Shown piece after piece: positions 9,279 through 18,979 of a stretch of DNA of 58,056 nt. Source of the stretch: Thermoguttaceae bacterium (GTDB lineage Bacteria; Planctomycetota; Planctomycetia; Pirellulales; Thermoguttaceae); NCBI GenBank assembly GCA_029975295.1, contig JARKPK010000092.1:1-58056 (forward strand), in the 5' to 3' direction. The position numbers were made by a program, and so were the translations under genes. The notes beneath the pieces were generated by a model, which was given only the letters and a program-made list of their open reading frames with translations, did not search any database and had not been told where the DNA came from. The stretch's first letter is position 1. Every line of letters begins with the position of its first letter.

Positions 9279-10253
9279 TTACGCATCGGTGGAATGGTCG
9301 TCCGCGTCAGAACCGCTCTCGGCGTCGTCGGCAGCGTCTGCGACGGCCAACGGCGGGCAGGCGGCGGAGACAACCCTGCTGAGGCGGATGAACTCCTCGA
9401 CGGAGAGTTGTTCGGCCCGACGCTGCGGGTCGATGCCTGCCTCGGCCAGAACGCGATCGACCTGCGGCTTATCGAGCAATCCTTTGAAGGCGCTGAGCAA
9501 TTCGGCGCGGACAAACTTGCGGCGATGCAGAAACATGGCCCGGGCAAACCGGTGGAAGAACCCATGATCGCCGGTTCGTTCGCGGAGCCGGGGATCGAAC
9601 CGCACCCGCACAAAGGCCGACGACACCTTCGGGCGAGGCCAAAAGACCTCGCGGGGCAGGATGCGCAATACCTCCGCGGTCGCCTGGCTTTGAAGCCAAA
9701 CGCTGAGCGACCCGTAGTCTTTTGTTCCGGGTTGGGCCACCACGCGATCAGCCAGTTCTTTCTGGATGGTGACGGTCATCGACTCCGGCGGATCATCGAG
9801 GGCGAGCAAGTTCATCATCAACGGGGTGGCGATCGCGTAGGGCAGATTGGCCGCCAGCTTCCAAGGGCGACGACCGTCGCGGCGACCGGCCACTTCGGCC
9901 AAAACCCCGGCGTCGAGCCGGTGCTTGCCTTCGAGAACGTCGGCCAAAACAAGCGTAACGTTCGAAAAGCCGGCCAACTCCTCACGAGCCAACTGGTGCA
10001 TCGCCCGATCGATCTCGACAGAGACGACATGCGACGCCATAGCCGCCAAACGCTGGGTGAGCGAACCCGTGCCCGTGCCGACTTCGAGCACGACGTCGTC
10101 GGGTCCAATCTGCGCCTCGGCCGCCAAGACGTCGAGCAAATTCAAGTCGATCAAAAAGTTCTGTCCGTATTGAACCCGCGGCCTGATGCCCACCTCGGCA
10201 AAACGGCGTTGAAGGTAGCTCAGGGTTTGTCGCGGCGAACGGTTTTCTACCAT
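9279..10253 (-). CDS. rsmA: 16S rRNA (adenine1518-N6/adenine1519-N6)-dimethyltransferase
   Basis: 324 aa, slightly longer than usual because of an acidic C-terminal tail (SGSDADDHSTDA). KsgA/RsmA dimethylates two adjacent adenosines near the 3' end of 16S rRNA late in 30S assembly. Seen: GQNFLI (30-35), SAM-binding motif I LEVGTGTGSLT (56-66), the acidic SVEID (78-82), catalytic motif NLPYAIATPL (136-145), and the C-terminal helical domain with WPRPKVSSAFVRV. It is on the minus strand, 181 bp from the zinc-ribbon gene upstream in transcription. Assignment is firm. Confidence 0.96.
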   Translation of the reverse strand: MVENRSPRQTLSYLQRRFAEVGIRPRVQYGQNFLIDLNLLDVLAAEAQIGPDDVVLEVGTGTGSLTQRLAAMASHVVSVEIDRAMHQLAREELAGFSNVTLVLADVLEGKHRLDAGVLAEVAGRRDGRRPWKLAANLPYAIATPLMMNLLALDDPPESMTVTIQKELADRVVAQPGTKDYGSLSVWLQSQATAEVLRILPREVFWPRPKVSSAFVRVRFDPRLRERTGDHGFFHRFARAMFLHRRKFVRAELLSAFKGLLDKPQVDRVLAEAGIDPQRRAEQLSVEEFIRLSRVVSAACPPLAVADAADDAESGSDADDHSTDA

Positions 10254-11769: not shown

Positions 11770-12732
11770 TCAATCGTCTTGGGCCGTGGAAACGGTCAGC
11801 AGAACCGGAACGGGCCGCACGACGATCTTGACGCCCAAAAGCCGATCGGAAGGGCTGTTGACCACGCGCAATGCGCCGTCGGCGCCGCGCACGGCCATCA
11901 CGCTGCTGCCACCGCCGTCGAGGTTGATAGCGCGGAATGAACCTTGTTCCGCCATCAACCCGGCCAACTCGTCCAAGGTCATCCCTTCGCTGAATCCCGG
12001 CTGACGGCCATCGACGACGACCAGAAGGAGAACTCGGCCCTCCCGGTCCAGTCCGATGGCCGTTCGGGGATGCCGCGGCCCGCCCGGCTCGACGCACGGT
12101 TTGCCCTCGCGGACAAGCCAACCGAAGCCCGCAACGCCATCCCGGACGGCTTTTTCTCCCGCAGCCTCATCGAACCGGACTCGCCCCTCGGAATCGAACC
12201 AAACCGAGGGATAACCGCGTTGCGGGGGGCTGAAGATCGTGCCGCGCGCCGCAGCCAAGCCCTGAATATCGACCGCTTGGCCCGAGTGCCATCGCCGATT
12301 CCGTCGGCCGTCGGCATCGGGAATCGCGTCCCAAGGGTTGGCATTGACGAAGGCAACCACACGCGGGCCGTCGCCCAGTTTGAGCGGATTGGTCAGAGCC
12401 GCCTCGGCGGGGCCATCGGCGTCGGGATCCGGTGCAACCGCCGCACCGGCGCGAACCTTTCCCGACCGCAAATCGACCCGCAGCAAATGCGCCCGATTGA
12501 GAACGGGGTTCTTCAGGTCGATCCGCCGGTGGTCCCAGCCCGAACGAGCCAGTTCCGTCGCGGTCGTCGGCTCGGCTGCCGCGCCCACCGCAACGACAAA
12601 CGAAACCCCAGCCACAAAGAGCCACCCATGAAGCCAAGAGCGGCGCAGACCGTTCCCCGGTCGCAGTTTCCGGCCAAGGCTGCGCCAGGCGGCGGGACGG
12701 ATTCGCTCGGTCGTCATCGGACAATCACTCAT
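11770..12732 (-). CDS. Exported phosphodiester glycosidase family protein (NAGPA domain)
   Basis: 320 aa from ATG 12732, preceded by AAGGGGC at about 5 nt; a longer frame to 12774 lacks such a site. A basic N-terminus and hydrophobic stretch (WLFVAGVSFVVAVGAAAEP) form a signal peptide or anchor. The C-terminal half carries the family hallmarks HPRTAIGLDREGRVLLLVV, DGRQPGFSEGMTLDELA and the glycine-rich INLDGGGSSVM. The family includes the human enzyme that uncovers mannose 6-phosphate by removing GlcNAc from a phosphodiester. Bacterial members act on envelope or extracellular phosphodiester sugars. The specific substrate is unknown. Divergent from the GNAT gene. Confidence 0.85.
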   Translation of the reverse strand: MSDCPMTTERIRPAAWRSLGRKLRPGNGLRRSWLHGWLFVAGVSFVVAVGAAAEPTTATELARSGWDHRRIDLKNPVLNRAHLLRVDLRSGKVRAGAAVAPDPDADGPAEAALTNPLKLGDGPRVVAFVNANPWDAIPDADGRRNRRWHSGQAVDIQGLAAARGTIFSPPQRGYPSVWFDSEGRVRFDEAAGEKAVRDGVAGFGWLVREGKPCVEPGGPRHPRTAIGLDREGRVLLLVVVDGRQPGFSEGMTLDELAGLMAEQGSFRAINLDGGGSSVMAVRGADGALRVVNSPSDRLLGVKIVVRPVPVLLTVSTAQDD

Positions 12733-13147
12733 GGCAGCCCCTTTGCAACCGATCATAGACACCTCGCAGAGCACGGCGTTGGCGACCTTCGTCGCGCCGT
12801 TGACCCAAAACGGGCGTCGCGCCTCGCGACAAACGACAAGCCTTACCGCAAACCCAGTCTAGCAACGGCACCGGTCCGCGGGAATCGAGCGGCCCGGCTT
12901 GCACGGCCCAGCGCCGCTATTCGCGCGGCATCGCTCGACGATTACAATGGGGGCCGAGCAATCGATACGGGACGGCAGCGTCGGCCATGCGGGCCGGGCT
13001 GCGCCGTCGAGGGGCGATGGGCCGACGTGGTTCGGCGCGAACACGCTTCGAAGCCGATCGTGCCGGCGCATGCGGGCAAAGCATCCCCTGATCGACGGCG
13101 ATGGCGGGACGGAACAGAGTCTCCTGGTCAAACGCGGCAGCGGCGGG
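12733..13147. other. Divergent gap upstream of the GNAT gene
   Basis: 415 bp between oppositely oriented genes. A TACAAT (12943-12948) matches the -10 consensus at 5 of 6 bases on the plus strand, but no -35 element lies at the right distance. Frames continuing upstream of 13148 are Arg-rich and unconvincing. Confidence 0.35.
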
Positions 13148-14095
13148 ATGGTCATCTATCGTTCCTTTCGCAACACGGATCCCCCGCGGCTGGCTGAGTT
13201 GCTGCGCGCGCATGTCGGGCGAATCGATCTTCCCTCGCATGTGACGATGGATTTGCTCGAACAACTCGTTTTCGCCAAGCTCTACTTCGACTACGACGGT
13301 TTGATCCTTGCGTGCGAGGGCGACCGGCTGATCGGATTCGTCCACGCGGGATTCGGGGCCGATCCGGGGGGCGAAGGGATCGACCGCAGCGTCGGCGTGA
13401 TTGCCTGGCTGCTCATGCAGCCCGACGCGGCAGGCCCCGAGCTGGCCGCCGAACTGATTCAGCAGGCCGAGGCGTATTTGCGCCGGCACGGCGCGCAACG
13501 ATTGGTTGCCGGCAGCCTTCGGCCGCACTGCCCCTTTTACGCCGGCATTTTGGGATTGGCCGAGCCGCCCGGCGTCAGCCAGTTCGACGAAGCGTTCGAA
13601 CGCGCCCTGCTGTCGCTGGGGTTCCATCCGCAACTGCGCACGATCACCCATCAGCGGACGCTGGCGGATTTCGAGGCGCCGATCGACCGCCGGCAGATGG
13701 ATATCCGCCGACGGATGATCGTCGAGGCAACGGTGGACGTGCCGACGCGCACTTGGTGGGAGGCCTGCCTGTGGAACGAATTCGAGTTGACGCGGCTCGA
13801 CCTGATGCCGCGCGGATCGAAGCAGGCGGCCGCTTCGGCCGTCTTTCGCGCGCTCGAGGCCGCCGGTTCGTCCACGGCCTACCGCGGCGCCGGGTTGATC
13901 GACATCACGGTCGATGAAAACTACCGGCGCAGAGGACTAGCCGTCTATCTTCTCAGCGAAGCATGCCGGCAATTCTCCCGGCAAGGAATGACGCACCTTT
14001 TCGCACTGGTGCGCACAGGCGACCTGCCCGCCGAGGGATTGCTCGCCAAGGTCGGATTCAAGCCGGCGTTTCGCGGCACTCTGTACGAGAAATAG
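13148..14095 (+). CDS. Tandem GNAT-family acetyltransferase
   Basis: 315 aa from ATG 13148 (MVIYRSFRNTDPPRLAELL), chosen because the GNAT fold begins there; upstream in-frame sequence is not protein-like. The N-terminal half (about 1-150) has GNAT features (DGLILACEGDRLIGFVHAGF; then a degenerate acetyl-CoA region). The C-terminal half (about 180-315) is better preserved, with the pyrophosphate-binding VDENYRRRGLAVYLLSEA (Q/RxxGxG/A-like) followed by GMTHLFALVRTGDLPAEGLLAKVGFK. The second domain is therefore probably the catalytic one. Acceptor unknown. The neighbouring minus-strand ferredoxin ends 15 bp away and is convergent, so no operon clue is available. Confidence 0.82.
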   Translation: MVIYRSFRNTDPPRLAELLRAHVGRIDLPSHVTMDLLEQLVFAKLYFDYDGLILACEGDRLIGFVHAGFGADPGGEGIDRSVGVIAWLLMQPDAAGPELAAELIQQAEAYLRRHGAQRLVAGSLRPHCPFYAGILGLAEPPGVSQFDEAFERALLSLGFHPQLRTITHQRTLADFEAPIDRRQMDIRRRMIVEATVDVPTRTWWEACLWNEFELTRLDLMPRGSKQAAASAVFRALEAAGSSTAYRGAGLIDITVDENYRRRGLAVYLLSEACRQFSRQGMTHLFALVRTGDLPAEGLLAKVGFKPAFRGTLYEK

Positions 14096-14110: not shown

Positions 14111-14281
14111 CTACATGCTGATCGCTTCGGTCGGGCAAACGTCGACGCACGCACCGCAATCGCCGCAGGTATCGGGATCGATGACGGCCAAACCGTCTTG
14201 CATCGAAATGGCTTCCAATGGGCACGACTCGATGCACGATTCGCAACCGGTGCACTTTTCCTTATCAACTACTGCTGCCAT
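14111..14281 (-). CDS. 2[4Fe-4S] ferredoxin
   Basis: 56 aa from ATG 14281, with GGGGAG in front at suitable spacing; a longer frame to 14476 is not protein-like. Two complete cluster motifs: CTGCESCIESCP (10-21) and CGDCGACVDVCP (39-50), each CxxCxxCxxxCP, related by internal duplication. Length and layout are those of clostridial-type ferredoxins carrying low-potential electrons in the cytoplasm. The partner enzyme is not evident nearby. A candidate promoter lies about 200 nt upstream. Very secure as a ferredoxin; its pathway is unknown. Confidence 0.95.
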   Translation of the reverse strand: MAAVVDKEKCTGCESCIESCPLEAISMQDGLAVIDPDTCGDCGACVDVCPTEAISM

Positions 14282-14662
14282 GAACGGTTCTCCCCAAAAG
14301 CGACCTAGCCCCGGTTGAATCGCGGCTCCCATGCCGACCATCCCGCTGACGGTCTTGTCACTGGCGCCTTTCCGGGCTTCCGCGAGCGCGGCCGCCCACT
14401 TGGGCCTGAGGTTGCCGAACGGGGGCGCCGACCGCCCTTCGCCCGCCGACCTTGCCCAACGCGCCGCCGCACGCAATCGGAAACTTGAACATAATCAATC
14501 GGCCCGCCGCGTCAAGTCCCTTGAGAAACAACCGTTTCAGATCGCCGCTTTATCGCAAATCCTTTGGCGAAAAAGGCATTTGAATAACGTGAGTGTAATC
14601 GCCGCCGCCGGCGTTCATCGCCTTCCGCCCCGTGTTGCCAACGCCCTTTGGTGCCAAGACAA
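14282..14662. other. Gap upstream of the ferredoxin gene
   Basis: 381 bp. It holds the candidate minus-strand promoter at 14488-14515 and no other gene. Frames that extend the ferredoxin upstream are Ala/Arg-rich without a ribosome binding site. Confidence 0.4.
14488..14515 (-). promoter_or_regulatory. Possible promoter of the ferredoxin gene
   Basis: On the minus strand TTGACG (14515-14510), a 16-nt spacer, and TATGTT (14493-14488). The -35 matches 5 of 6 and the -10 matches 4 of 6. It would give a leader of about 200 nt. Confidence 0.35.
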
Positions 14663-15691
14663 TCAATCAACGCTTGCCTGCCGGCTGAATCGATCGGCCC
14701 AATAGAGCGGCTCGGGCAGGCGGCGGCCGCCGGTCATCTGTCGCACCCAACGCTCGGCAAAGCTCACATCGCAACGGTGCCCCGGCGAAATGAAGACGCA
14801 CTTCCGGCTCGACTTGCTCGGCCGAAACGCAACGCCGAGCCGTTGCCCGCCCACAACGATCGGCTCCGAATGGCCCGTTGCGATGCCCGCGGTGTCGCAT
14901 CGCCCCAGCAGCGGCGTCTTGCTCACGCCGACCGAAGGCAGACCGGCCAGCACGCCCAAATGAACGGCAATCCCCGCCCCCCGCGGATGCAGCGTTCCGC
15001 TGCCGTCGATCATCAACAGATCGGGCTCGTGACCTTCCGTTTGGAGTCGGTCGAGCAATTCCGCATAGGCGGGCAATTCGCGGAACGCCAGCAGCGAGCT
15101 GATGTAGGGGAAGCCGACCGGCCGGCGAATCACATTGCGGACAAGCAGCGCGCCTTCCCCGTCGCAGATCGTACAAGCTGCTTGAATCGTTCCATCGCTG
15201 CGATACGCGGCGTCGAAACCGGCGATCCGTCGCGGCGGCTGCCGCGGAGTTTGATCGCTGCGCAAGGCGGCCACGCGGTTCTGAAGGTCGACCAGCGCGG
15301 CCAGCGGCCGATCGCATTGAAACCCCGTGAACAGAAACCGATCGATCTCCAACCGCGGCGGCCATGCGCCGTCATCGGCGGCCATTGCTACGCCTTCGCT
15401 GCGAAGAAGCGAAACCTTTTCGGCGGTTGGTCCCGCAATGAACGGGCCCGGCTCGCCCGAGGCACGGACAATGCGATGGCAGCGGCAACCATCGCAATGA
15501 TCGTGATCGGCCGACCATTGCGCCACCCACACGGCGGCCCCGCGAAACCCAAGCGCCTCGGCCAGCGCGCCGCACGTGGCGACCCGGCCCGCGGGAATCT
15601 GCGCGACCAACTCGGCCAAGGCCGATTCCAAGTTCGGCAGCGGCGGGAGCAGCGACGAACGATCTAACGGCATTCGTATTCGCCGATTCAT
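14663..15691 (-). CDS. Alkyltransferase-like / endonuclease V fusion protein
   Basis: 342 aa from ATG 15691; ATGs at 15703 and 15673 are alternatives, and none has a clear ribosome binding site. Residues about 18-105 match the C-terminal domain of O6-alkylguanine alkyltransferases: IPAGRVATCGALAEALG as the helix-turn-helix, and CHRIV at 71-75 with the nucleophile cysteine C71. The usual PCHR is RCHR, the arginine-finger AARAVG is AAVWVA, and the Asn before the active site is missing. Residues about 130-340 are endonuclease V, which nicks beside deoxyinosine: GFDAAY (D160), LAFRELP (E205), MIDGSG (D229) and HPRGAGIAVHLGVL are intact. The same AGT-EndoV order is known from the archaeon Ferroplasma acidarmanus. 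The EndoV half is probably active; the AGT half is uncertain. Confidence 0.88.
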   Translation of the reverse strand: MNRRIRMPLDRSSLLPPLPNLESALAELVAQIPAGRVATCGALAEALGFRGAAVWVAQWSADHDHCDGCRCHRIVRASGEPGPFIAGPTAEKVSLLRSEGVAMAADDGAWPPRLEIDRFLFTGFQCDRPLAALVDLQNRVAALRSDQTPRQPPRRIAGFDAAYRSDGTIQAACTICDGEGALLVRNVIRRPVGFPYISSLLAFRELPAYAELLDRLQTEGHEPDLLMIDGSGTLHPRGAGIAVHLGVLAGLPSVGVSKTPLLGRCDTAGIATGHSEPIVVGGQRLGVAFRPSKSSRKCVFISPGHRCDVSFAERWVRQMTGGRRLPEPLYWADRFSRQASVD

Positions 15692-15994: not shown

Positions 15995-18979
15995 ATGCAC
16001 ATGCAATCCGCCCCTGCCGGCTCGACTTCTGAACGCTTCATTCACCGGACAATCGTCCGACCATGCGGCCTCGCAGGGCGAACCCCGGCAGGGGTCGTAT
16101 CGACCGAATCACTCCTCAACGGAACCGCGGACGACACGCGCATCAAGCGGCCGAAACGCGCAATGGGCCGTTTCGCTGCGATCGCGGCCGTTTTCTTCGC
16201 AACGTGCTCGTATCTAACCGGCGGCACCGAGCAACAGGCCACAGCCGCGGCTGCGGCAGCCGACGCGGCCGCGCCCGTTCCGGCCGCCTCGTCGGCTCAT
16301 GGGCCCGCGCGGTTGTTCGTCGCGCCGCAGGGTGACGATCGGTTCTCCGGCCTGATCCCGGAACGCAACGCGGAAGGCGCCGACGGCCCGTTGGCCACCC
16401 TCAACGCCGCCCGCGATCGGCTGCGCAGCCTGCGGAAGGAGGGCGGGTTGCCCCGCGGAGCGATCATCGAACTGCGCGGCGGCGTGTATTCGCTGCCGGA
16501 GACGTTGAAGCTGTCGAAAGAAGACGCCGCCACGGCCGAGGGCCCAATCGTTGTTCGCGCCTTCGACCGCGAGAGGCCGATTGTAATGGGCGCCAAGCCT
16601 CTTTCCGGCTGGACGAATCATCGAGGTCCGATCTGGAAGACCGACGTCCGGTCGCAGGGATTCGGCACAGTCTATTTTCGGCAGCTCTATTTCGACGGCC
16701 GGCGCCAGCAGTTGGCCCGCTATCCGAATTACGATCCGGAAAACCCCTACAGCGGCGGCTGGGCCTACGTCGATGGCGAGCCGGTGAACATGTATCAAGA
16801 GATTCCCGGCGAGAATCGCAATGAATTGGTCTTCCGCGAACAAGACCGCCGTGATTGGTCTCGGCCCGACGAGTTGGAGGTGTTCATCTTTCCCCGATAC
16901 AACTGGTGGAACAATATCGTCGGCGTCAAGTCGATCGACGGCAGGACCCGCAAGATCACGCTCAAGGGCAACTGCTCCTATCCGCCGCGCCCGCTAGACC
17001 GCTACTACGTCCGCAATGCGCTCGAAGAACTCGACGCGCCCGGCGAATGGTACCTCGATAAGCAGGACGGAACGCTCTACTTCTATCCGCCGCGCCCCAT
17101 TTCGGCCGCTGCGGCCTATGCGCCGCACTTGCGAACGATCATCGAGGCGAACGACGTGGCCCATTGGCGGCTAGAAGGCATCGGGTTTGAGAATTGCGAG
17201 GGCAACGCGCTGGTGTTCAATCGGTGCGAAGATTGCACGGTCGAGCGTTGCGTGATTCGCAACGTGGGCGATTACAACGGCTCGGGCGCGACGGTCAACG
17301 GCGGGCGCAAGGTGCGCGTCGTCGGCTGCGACATCAGCGAAACGGGCAACCACGGCATCGCTCTTTCCGGCGGCGATCGGGTCAAACTCGTCGCGGCCGA
17401 GCACGAGGCCGTCAACAACTACATCCACCATGTCGGCGTATTCTACAAGCACGGCGTCGGGGTCAGCATGAGCGGATGCGGAATCCGCGCCGCCCACAAT
17501 TTGATTCACGACGGGCCGCGGATGGGCATTCAATTCAGCGGAAACAACCTGCTCATCGAACTGAATCGGATTCGGCACGTCAATTTGGAAACGGAAGACA
17601 CCGGGGCGGTTTACACGGGCGGGCGCGATTGGATCAGCTCGCGCGGCACGGTCATCCGCCACAACTATTTCCACGACATCCTCGGCTTCGGCCGCCACGG
17701 CCGACAGTGGGTTTCGCCCTACTTCGCCTGGGGCGTGTATCTCGACGACAATGCCGGCGGGGTGGATGTGGTGGGCAACATCGTGGTGCGCGCCTTCCGC
17801 GCCGGGCTGCACTTGCACAACGGCCGCGACAACCTGATCGAGAACAACATCTTCGTCGACGGCAAACAGCAGCAAATCGAGTTCAGCGGCTGGACCGACC
17901 AGCACCGCTACTGGACCAATCACATGCCGACGATGCTCAAGGGCTACGAGTCGGTGATCAACGAGCCCGCCTGGAAAACAATGCGCAACATGCACATCCA
18001 TCCGTCGCAGGCCGTGCTGCCCGACCGCACGATCATGTCGGGCAATGTGGTGCGGCGGAACATTATCTTCTACCGCGATCCGCAAACAAAACTCTATACG
18101 CTCAAGAATGTCAATCTCGATCACAATCGCTTCGAATCGAACCTGGTGTATTGCGGCGGCCCCAGCCCGCAAACGGGGTATTTGCAACTCGATCGGACAA
18201 CCGGGCCGAACGTGCTGCTCAATGCCGATTTTGCCGAGGGCCAGCCGGGCAAGCTGCCGCCCAAATGGCACTTCCAGCACCGCCCGGCCGAGGCGACCGC
18301 CGTGCTCGACGAAGTCCATCTGCCGCCCGAAAGCGACGCAGAGGCGCCGGCGGCCCGGGCAATTCGTTTGTCGGTGAAGGAACTGAAAGACGCTCAGGGC
18401 AAGGCCTCGGCGGCGGCCGTGGTGAGCCAAGCCGTCGAGGCTGCGCCCGGACGGGCCTACCGAATCACGGCGCAGCTTCGGGCCGATCAGCCCGACACCT
18501 CCGTGAAACTCCTGGCTCAATCGTACGAGCATAAGGCGTATTTCTGGGCGAAGGAAAAGGTGGTCAGCGTCGGCCCGAAGTGGCAAACCTTCGATTTGGT
18601 GTTCCGCCTGCCGCAGCCGGGCGAGTCGGGATATCACGAGCAGATGAAGTCGGTGGCCGCGCGGTTCGATCTGAACAGCCCGAACCGAACGCTGTGGATT
18701 CGCAAGCCGTCGCTTCAACCGGCCGAGATGCTCGACCCGTGGCGCTCATGGCAGGCCATCGGCCAAGATCGCGGGTCGCTCGTGGCCGATCCGCTGTTCG
18801 TCGATGCAGACCGCGACGATTATCGGCTTCGTCCCGAATCGCCCGCCTGGAAGCTCGGGTTCCAGCCGATCCCGGTAGAGCGGATCGGTCCGCAGCCCGA
18901 TTTGCCGCGGGCCACTTGGCCGATCGTCGAAGCCGAGGGTGTGCGCGAGAAGCCGATTCGCACGATCGAGGTCCGCTAA
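15995..18979 (+). CDS. Large exported right-handed beta-helix protein (putative glycoside hydrolase or lyase)
   Basis: 994 aa from ATG 15995; an internal ATG at 16163 (MGRFAAIAAVFFATC) would place the signal peptide at the very N-terminus and may be the true start. After the export signal comes the entry typical of secreted beta-helix enzymes: RLFVAPQGDDRFSG, PLATLNAARDRLRSLR and IIELRGGVYSLPETL. Repeated helix turns lie about 385-690 (ENCEGNALVFNRCEDCTVE, NLIENNIFVDGKQQQ). A C-terminal carbohydrate-binding-like region starts near NVLLNADFAEGQPG (about 740), then ADPLFVDADRDDYRL, the usual closing motif. Such proteins act on polysaccharides, for example in GH141 or polysaccharide-lyase-like groups; no catalytic residues can be named here. 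It stands alone, with acs downstream. Confidence 0.8.
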   Translation: MHMQSAPAGSTSERFIHRTIVRPCGLAGRTPAGVVSTESLLNGTADDTRIKRPKRAMGRFAAIAAVFFATCSYLTGGTEQQATAAAAAADAAAPVPAASSAHGPARLFVAPQGDDRFSGLIPERNAEGADGPLATLNAARDRLRSLRKEGGLPRGAIIELRGGVYSLPETLKLSKEDAATAEGPIVVRAFDRERPIVMGAKPLSGWTNHRGPIWKTDVRSQGFGTVYFRQLYFDGRRQQLARYPNYDPENPYSGGWAYVDGEPVNMYQEIPGENRNELVFREQDRRDWSRPDELEVFIFPRYNWWNNIVGVKSIDGRTRKITLKGNCSYPPRPLDRYYVRNALEELDAPGEWYLDKQDGTLYFYPPRPISAAAAYAPHLRTIIEANDVAHWRLEGIGFENCEGNALVFNRCEDCTVERCVIRNVGDYNGSGATVNGGRKVRVVGCDISETGNHGIALSGGDRVKLVAAEHEAVNNYIHHVGVFYKHGVGVSMSGCGIRAAHNLIHDGPRMGIQFSGNNLLIELNRIRHVNLETEDTGAVYTGGRDWISSRGTVIRHNYFHDILGFGRHGRQWVSPYFAWGVYLDDNAGGVDVVGNIVVRAFRAGLHLHNGRDNLIENNIFVDGKQQQIEFSGWTDQHRYWTNHMPTMLKGYESVINEPAWKTMRNMHIHPSQAVLPDRTIMSGNVVRRNIIFYRDPQTKLYTLKNVNLDHNRFESNLVYCGGPSPQTGYLQLDRTTGPNVLLNADFAEGQPGKLPPKWHFQHRPAEATAVLDEVHLPPESDAEAPAARAIRLSVKELKDAQGKASAAAVVSQAVEAAPGRAYRITAQLRADQPDTSVKLLAQSYEHKAYFWAKEKVVSVGPKWQTFDLVFRLPQPGESGYHEQMKSVAARFDLNSPNRTLWIRKPSLQPAEMLDPWRSWQAIGQDRGSLVADPLFVDADRDDYRLRPESPAWKLGFQPIPVERIGPQPDLPRATWPIVEAEGVREKPIRTIEVR

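Follow-up and report, generated by a model that had tools for sequence, protein, structure and literature searches.

Fusions of an alkyltransferase (AGT) domain to endonuclease V (EndoV) are known from archaea. The AGT-EndoV fusion of Ferroplasma acidarmanus has been described in print (Kanugula et al. 2005, as cited in the consulted parts of PMC10779285 and PMC3489907), and the first of these sources states that it repairs O6-alkylguanine. The same source, in the parts consulted, describes alkyltransferase-like proteins (ATLs) as lacking the Asn hinge, with a capping loop in its place, and suggests that an ATL-EndoV fusion in archaea mimics ATL-driven excision repair (PMC10779285). It speculates further that EndoV acts as the excision nuclease for the ATL, and that EndoV contacts speed the sliding of the archaeal ATL-EndoV protein. 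The consulted parts of PMC3950489 mention archaeal ATLs and make no mention of such a fusion. The literature that we searched, with most subscription journals outside its coverage, held no report of a planctomycete fusion or of the HxH/CxC site described below, and none of an AGT fold whose catalytic domain carries a zinc-type site.

Here we describe a fusion gene from a Thermoguttaceae bacterium (Planctomycetota; assembly GCA_029975295.1). It lies on a stretch of 58,056 nucleotides of contig JARKPK010000092.1 which was analyzed as a whole and is called the window; the product of the gene is called the window protein. Like the Ferroplasma acidarmanus fusion, the window protein carries an AGT active-site domain and EndoV in one chain, and the order of AGT fold followed by EndoV is common to it and its archaeal relatives. 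Unlike the Ferroplasma fusion, as judged from the archaeal relatives that keep the cysteine, it lacks the Asn hinge, the Arg finger, the Tyr and the Pro and possesses an HxHx3CxC motif. With the archaeal ATL-EndoV fusions, as described in the consulted parts of PMC10779285, it shares the combination of a sensor-type AGT fold and EndoV, whereas its own subfamily, in the rows seen, comprises bacterial sequences and retains the cysteine as part of a putative metal site. Among free-standing proteins, S. pombe Atl1 (3gva, 3gx4) resembles residues 17-123 in fold and in the absence of the N-terminal AGT domain and of the Asn hinge (the latter for Atl1 according to the consulted parts of PMC10779285); unlike the window protein, it carries Trp in place of the acceptor cysteine and lacks a CxC. 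The EndoVs of T. maritima and E. coli (2w35, 4xpu), also free-standing unlike the window protein, correspond to the whole EndoV domain including its catalytic residues.

A single gene encodes both domains

The gene runs on the minus strand through 342 codons to its stop in a single open frame (Table 1). An AGT-type domain and EndoV in one frame had been proposed in an earlier sequence-only reading of this DNA, and both families were matched above their cut-offs: PF01035 scored 48.4 bits at residues 24-101 against a cut-off of 27, and PF04493 scored 174 bits at residues 146-334 against 23.4. The start codon is uncertain, with ATG at 15691 or at 15673 (M7), and homology begins at about residue 15-18. 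Four NCBIfam models matched, each on one half or the other and all under their own cut-offs. The EndoV equivalog models scored 152 bits against a cut-off of 230 and 125.4 against 300, which speaks against those narrower-group equivalogs and not against EndoV; TIGR00589 (ogt) scored 21.3 bits against 46.4. In the host genome (190 contigs, 5.0 Mb) the fusion gene was the one EndoV match; the other PF01035 gene of this genome, with a score of 103 bits, had an ordinary PCHR site. An AlphaFold2 model of the window protein, with 45 relatives in the input alignment (45 of the 69 fusion loci of the species-genome scan), reached a mean pLDDT of 95.1 and a pTM of 0.91.

All residues named in the sequence-only reading were found in place, namely the helix-turn-helix IPAGRVATCGALAEALG (32-48), C71 in CHRIV, D160, E205, D229, AAVWVA, C66, C69 and H72. 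Its "C-terminal AGT-type domain" is indeed the C-terminal domain of AGT and sits in the N-terminal half of this protein. Separate genes or an intervening stop were looked for among the homologues: the remaining 102 of the 103 non-redundant fusion rows likewise carry both parts in a single frame, with a shortened EndoV part in L142. A sequencing error or a chance frame was rejected as the origin of the gene, as the fusion was present in all 103 rows.

Table 1. Coordinates of the fusion gene, its domains and residues, and neighboring genes in the window
Feature	Position	Strand	Basis or remark
AGT/ATL-like domain-EndoV fusion gene, 342 aa + stop	14663..15691	-	open frame; homologous fusions
AGT/ATL-fold domain with tail, residues 18-123	15323..15640	-	PF01035 match; model against 3gx4
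Helix-turn-helix of AGT fold, residues 32-48 (IPAGRVATCGALAEALG), C40 in place of base-flipping Tyr	15548..15598	-	
V54, arginine finger position	15530..15532	-	fusion alignment
H63-x-H65-x3-C69-x-C71, putative four-ligand metal site on acceptor cysteine C71	15479..15505	-	joint presence/absence
H72 and R73 of AGT CHR motif	15473..15478	-	fusion alignment
E99, taken as human AGT E172 position	15395..15397	-	fusion alignment
EndoV domain, residues 128-342	14666..15310	-	PF04493 match; 2w35_A structure match
Catalytic D160 (T. maritima D43)	15212..15214	-	103/103 fusions; printed alignment
Catalytic E205 (T. maritima E89)	15077..15079	-	103/103 fusions; printed alignment
Catalytic D229 (T. maritima D110)	15005..15007	-	103/103 fusions; printed alignment
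L234, before conserved HP	14990-14992	-	
Conserved K258	14918..14920	-	102/103 fusions; exception L142, frame ends early
Two-cluster 4Fe-4S ferredoxin gene	14111-14476	-	directly downstream
Large beta-helix protein, GH141 insertion-domain match	15995-18979	+	divergent from fusion gene
Acetyltransferase, two GNAT stretches	12899-14095	+	
Phosphodiester glycosidase (NAGPA) family protein	11770-12774	-	
Ribosomal RNA adenine dimethylase	9282-10253	-	

The gene directly downstream, on the same strand, encodes a two-cluster 4Fe-4S ferredoxin. A ferredoxin motif was also found downstream of the fusion in L034-L038, the five best-matching loci of the species-genome scan, and a scan of the other loci, many of them with short flanks, gave none. 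A conserved operon partner was rejected: the only candidate was the ferredoxin in the nearest relatives, and most of the shared neighbor frames resembled antisense shadows.

Distribution of the fusion

Within the phylum sample, 156 of 392 genomes matched the window protein. Of the 30 loci that were fetched, 21, counting that of the window, were full-length fusions. All 21 belonged to the same class as the window, and the other phylum matches, among those listed, were EndoV or AGT alone. The species-genome scan gave at least 69 fusion loci among the 80 matches listed, the 11 others lacking a full AGT part. Among the matches listed, fusion-bearing records were named as planctomycetes, Fraserbacteria, Acetothermia/Bipolaricaulota, Hippea and Campylobacterales, and further as Thermoplasmata, Methanomassiliicoccales, Aciduliprofundum, an Aenigmatarchaeote and others. 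One of the fusions (L050) belongs to Thalassoglobus neptunius, a planctomycete available in culture that also has a separate AGT gene. Two long EndoV frames (L026 and L027) were rejected as extra fusions; their extra stretch was, by eye, an arginine-rich reading of another frame.

The 120 fusion rows were reduced to 103 non-redundant ones by identical C-terminal stretches. These fell into 29 canonical fusions (C71 without C69), 31 with the full H63-x-H65-x3-C69-x-C71 set (HHCC), 3 with C69 and C71 without HxH (xxCC) and 40 without the cysteine (Cys-less). As the first three labels are defined by HxH, C69 and C71, these residues are constant within them by definition. One locus, L142, comes from a genome of the window's class and has a PCHR site without the HHCC set; its EndoV part ends early by a frame change, with the remainder in another frame (L167), and it was left out of the EndoV tree for this reason.

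The EndoV half

The second half of the structure model aligned (VIA-align) to T. maritima EndoV 2w35_A with a Z of 32.8 and an rmsd of 1.7 over 221 aligned residues. The rows under the EndoVs were ATLs, 2qh9 and Argonaute-type folds, the latter two covering the EndoV half. D160, E205 and D229, which the earlier reading had taken for the EndoV site, align to the T. maritima residues given in Table 1, and H235 is likewise kept in 103 of 103 fusions. The EndoV half is complete in fold and catalytic residues and is a predicted nuclease.

L234 precedes a conserved HP. This Leu was found in all 21 fusions of the first alignment, and the three bacterial EndoVs aligned, those of T. maritima and E. coli among them, have Ala or Ser at its place.

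The first half has an AGT/ATL fold with altered AGT residues

An AGT fold was looked for in the structure model and found at residues 17-123. The closest VIA-align matches of this part were the S. pombe ATL 3gx4 (Z 15.2, rmsd 2.2, 104 aligned of 108), 3gva (Z 15.1) and 2kif (Z 13.7). The last of these, from V. parahaemolyticus, bears the name of an O6-methylguanine DNA methyltransferase family protein, yet its acceptor position is Trp. A PDB search with a profile of HHCC-type first halves returned 3gva (1.2e-13) and 2kif (1.7e-13), then Ada (6.6e-11) and the AGT 1t39 (8.9e-10); with a full-length profile, the lead of 3gva and 2kif over Ada was small (7.2e-18 and 1.8e-17 versus 4.7e-17). A tree of the AGT domain (101 columns) gave no decision for or against ATL descent. 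As in ATLs, the AGT C-terminal fold is present and the N-terminal AGT domain absent. ATLs are also marked by replacement of the acceptor Cys. Because C71 is present, we liken the window protein to an ATL in action and do not class it as one.

Several residues of the AGT reaction are changed in the window protein. The base-flipping Tyr (human Y114) is C40; Y40 was found in 29/29 canonical and 24/31 HHCC fusions, and C40 in 6/31 of the latter. The Arg finger position is V54, where R54 was found in 29/29 canonical and 26/31 HHCC fusions and V54 in 4/31 HHCC fusions. Both Tyr and Arg finger are gone in the window protein, as they are in L040 and L042 (C, V) and in L046 (P, V), so that ATL-type lesion flipping is doubtful here. 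The position which we take to be the Asn hinge is H63; it is N63 in 24/29 canonical fusions and His in 34/34 rows with the motif in the planctomycete-type clade of the EndoV tree. The loss of the Asn hinge and of the arginine finger, claimed from the sequence alone, was borne out. So was that of the Pro before the acceptor Cys, which is R70 in the window protein, with Cys, His and Arg of the PCHR motif kept. P70 was present in 28/29 canonical fusions, but since just 16/31 HHCC relatives carry it, the missing proline is not diagnostic. Among the 31 HHCC fusions H72 was found in 29 and R73 in 30, two members (L052 and L057) having F instead of H72, and the E99 position was E in 26 and D in 5.

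The AGT half might be a mere DNA-binding handle, which would raise the affinity or the speed of EndoV with zero lesion recognition. The window protein retains its helix-turn-helix but no longer has the flipping residues (C40, V54), which would fit such a handle, and the speculation on faster sliding of the archaeal ATL-EndoV protein (PMC10779285, in the parts consulted) points in the same direction. The retention of Y40 and R54 by most HHCC relatives suggests, however, that bases are flipped elsewhere in the subfamily, and we consider a pure handle improbable.

A conserved set of two histidines and two cysteines at the acceptor site

The residues H63, H65, C69 and C71 showed a nearly two-state distribution in the planctomycete-type clade (56 rows in the EndoV tree, 57 with L142 added): all four were present in 31 members, none in 21, and 5 were intermediate. 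Of the intermediates, L041, L048 and L080 possess H63, C69 and C71 with H65 replaced, L101 has C69 only, and L142 has C71 without the other three. The H65 position of L080 is Cys, and His to Cys is a common ligand exchange. C71 was kept in all 34 clade members with H63 and C69. Outside the clade (46 rows), 28 rows had C71 and C69 was found in 0/28; one of the outside rows, L066, has HxH and one cysteine, with serine at position 71. Both motif halves are kept in L044, where 26 residues instead of 3 separate HxH from CxC. The sequence-only reading had pointed to a gain of Cys and His residues near the acceptor. Of the residues that it named, C69 and C71 belong to the conserved set; C66 lies outside the conserved motif, and H63, H65 and the change of Tyr to Cys40 had been missed.

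On the best tree, and with a single gain of the set in the clade assumed, 9 losses of C71 are needed. The whole set of four disappears in 8 of them and three of its residues in the ninth; two additional inferred events touch H65 alone. The joint losses may be fewer than counted because the tree of the EndoV part is weakly supported (26/99 inner branches starred, support of 88 for the planctomycete-type clade), and tests with independent pairs on this tree comprised few pairs only. L067, at the clade base, may never have carried the site. The branch of the window protein is long (0.82).

Joint presence and absence of H63, H65, C69 and C71 argues for one co-operating site. Most simply, the set would be a putative metal site with C71 as a ligand, which replaces the asparagine hinge of AGT. 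As judged from the alignment, the HHCC acceptor site is a conserved trait of the subfamily and not a peculiarity of the window protein. The protein might instead be an ordinary Ferroplasma-type AGT-EndoV fusion in which odd neighbors of the acceptor are tolerated and HxH/CxC represents a disulfide, a redox feature or a lineage quirk. Both families do stand in one chain in the same order as in archaeal fusions, and C71, H72, R73 and E99 are kept. S. pombe Atl1 moreover has an H-x-H in the same loop, shifted by one position when aligned and without cysteines, so that HxH in that loop need not signify metal. An ordinary fusion is at odds with the loss of the four residues mostly together and not singly, with the absence of C69 from all 28 rows outside the clade that have C71, and with the His at the Asn hinge position in every clade row with the motif. 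We give it a low probability, and prefer the putative metal site.

Stand-alone HHCC domains were not found: the best 45 matches to an HHCC profile listed from 297 genomes of the class were all fused by sequence, and 9 unfused genes among the next-ranked matches (L158-L166) had no HxH and no CxC. The profile score alone cannot separate fused from unfused genes, as the fusion L157 (G476) ranked below some of the unfused ones. The HHCC subfamily was bacterial in the rows seen. One HHCC fusion inside the planctomycete-type clade (L043) comes from a bin titled Candidatus Fraserbacteria, which indicates either transfer or misbinning.

The acceptor cysteine is dispensable in part of the family

Across the 103 non-redundant fusions C71 was kept in 63 and replaced in 40, by S (11), V (11), A (7), W (6), T (3), I (1) or R (1). 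The Cys-less fusions retain R73 in 40/40 and H72 in 34/40. Among archaeal fusions L073, L076, L087, L097 and L103 are Cys-less, and the archaeal relatives with the cysteine mostly read N..PC[HYF][RK]. Ten more fusion loci (L148-L157) lie outside the 103. Two of them are repeats (L149 of L067 and L156 of L044). None of the other eight has the cysteine, as judged by eye, so that their inclusion would raise the Cys-less share.

Pairwise dN/dS (Nei-Gojobori) of the first half ranged from about 0.05 to 0.5 and was close to that of the EndoV half; these values are rough, since synonymous divergence was high in many pairs, and they were obtained from pairs of relatives, with the window protein in none, as its nearest relatives are too distant for such a comparison. 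For Cys-less pairs, the values of first and EndoV half were 0.18/0.17 (L012-L013), 0.07/0.10 (L018-L021) and 0.12/0.11 (L049-L051). By this measure the Cys-less first half is maintained under purifying selection and is not decaying in the relatives tested. Replacement of C71 in 40/103 fusions while dN/dS stays near that of the EndoV half indicates that the acceptor is dispensable in the family.

Another PF01035 gene was found alongside 35/39 non-canonical versus 7/25 canonical fusions (Fisher p 5e-7, kinship ignored). This count covers 64 genomes (14 plus 50 of the remaining 55; L047, L051, L086, L099 and L100 left out), in which absences are uncertain, most being metagenome bins of unstated completeness, and independent pairs are few. 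The archaeal rows gave a separate PF01035 gene with 5/5 Cys-less versus 4/17 canonical fusions (p 0.005), and 15/17 of the HHCC genomes tested have another PF01035 gene. The second genes that were read, in the 14-genome subset, mostly had PCHR, with PWHR in L191. A fusion that is the sole AGT of its genome would keep its acceptor, and one with a backup AGT may lose or rebuild it.

Proposed function of the fusion protein

We propose that the window protein tethers an active EndoV-type nuclease to a lesion sensor that resembles an ATL and is braced by a metal, while a separate AGT carries out alkyl repair; we give this reading a probability of about one half. The first half would dock on DNA through its helix-turn-helix and hold or position EndoV at damaged sites, in the way in which ATLs hold nucleotide excision proteins, and would do so in place of a self-consuming alkyl transfer. 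The EndoV half, judged by its fold and catalytic residues, would nick next to deaminated bases. The Asn hinge and the loop before the cysteine appear to have been remodelled into H63-x-H65-x3-C69-x-C71, which, given the joint presence and absence of these residues, is most likely a zinc-type site with a structural role. The metal would brace the loop between recognition helix and pocket, with the old acceptor cysteine as one of its ligands. Ordinary alkyl repair would fall to the canonical PCHR AGT encoded elsewhere in the genome, a presumed division of labor.

A lesion sensor that directs EndoV and a metal-binding domain had been offered by the sequence-only reading as two possibilities. Both gained support and they are mutually compatible, so that the proposal can be called partly supported by sequence comparison and modeling. 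The sensor is favored because the first half comes nearest to ATLs both among solved folds and in profile searches, because the window protein has lost Asn hinge, Arg finger and Tyr and C71 is absent from 40/103 fusions, and because the domain is under purifying selection in the relatives tested. The metal is favored because the four residues are mostly present or absent together. Contrary to a sensor, the HHCC group keeps C71, H72 (29/31) and E99, as a working transferase needs, and residual alkyl transfer to C71 may occur. The family as a whole is not just ATL-like, as canonical fusions with an intact acceptor exist.

A zinc-thiolate cysteine that accepts alkyl groups is known from the N-terminal domain of Ada. 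By convergence with this precedent, C71 of the HHCC proteins might be a zinc-bound thiolate that still accepts alkyl groups, which would make the first half a metal-activated alkyltransferase, with EndoV handling deamination or other damage. The presence of C71 in all 34 clade members with H63 and C69 would be explained in this way, as would the frequent retention of H72 and E99, and the Ferroplasma fusion does repair O6-alkylguanine (PMC10779285, in the parts consulted). Such a function is difficult to reconcile with the replacement of C71 in 40/103 relatives, with F in place of H72 in the HHCC members L052 and L057, with the loss of Arg finger and Tyr from the window protein and with the other PF01035 gene in nearly all HHCC genomes tested. 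It seems to us unlikely, if the least so of the alternatives to the metal-braced sensor.

More speculatively, the zinc site formed by H63, H65, C69 and C71 could be a switch, in which alkylation of C71 or binding of a lesion would reshape or release the metal loop and license EndoV to cut. The chances of this are small in our estimate. If it were true, the AGT fold would here have given rise to a sensor of alkylation that works by a metal-thiolate, in convergence with the N-terminal Ada domain and wired to a nuclease instead of to transcription.

Meaning for the AGT/ATL-EndoV family

AGT/ATL-EndoV fusions were known from archaea (PMC10779285, in the parts consulted) and are found here also in several bacterial groups. 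The fusion is probably of the known archaeal kind, to which the subfamily of the window protein adds a conserved, remodelled and putatively metal-binding acceptor site. If the metal site is real, the catalytic domain of the AGT fold would here hold a site of the zinc type. The family offers a natural series of acceptor sites, from the canonical Cys through the HHCC Cys to Ser, Val, Ala, Trp or Thr, with the catalytic residues of the nuclease kept throughout. Comparison of these sequences suggests that a self-sacrificing repair domain was turned into a damage sensor, and the series makes the transition from transferase to sensor directly testable with natural proteins.
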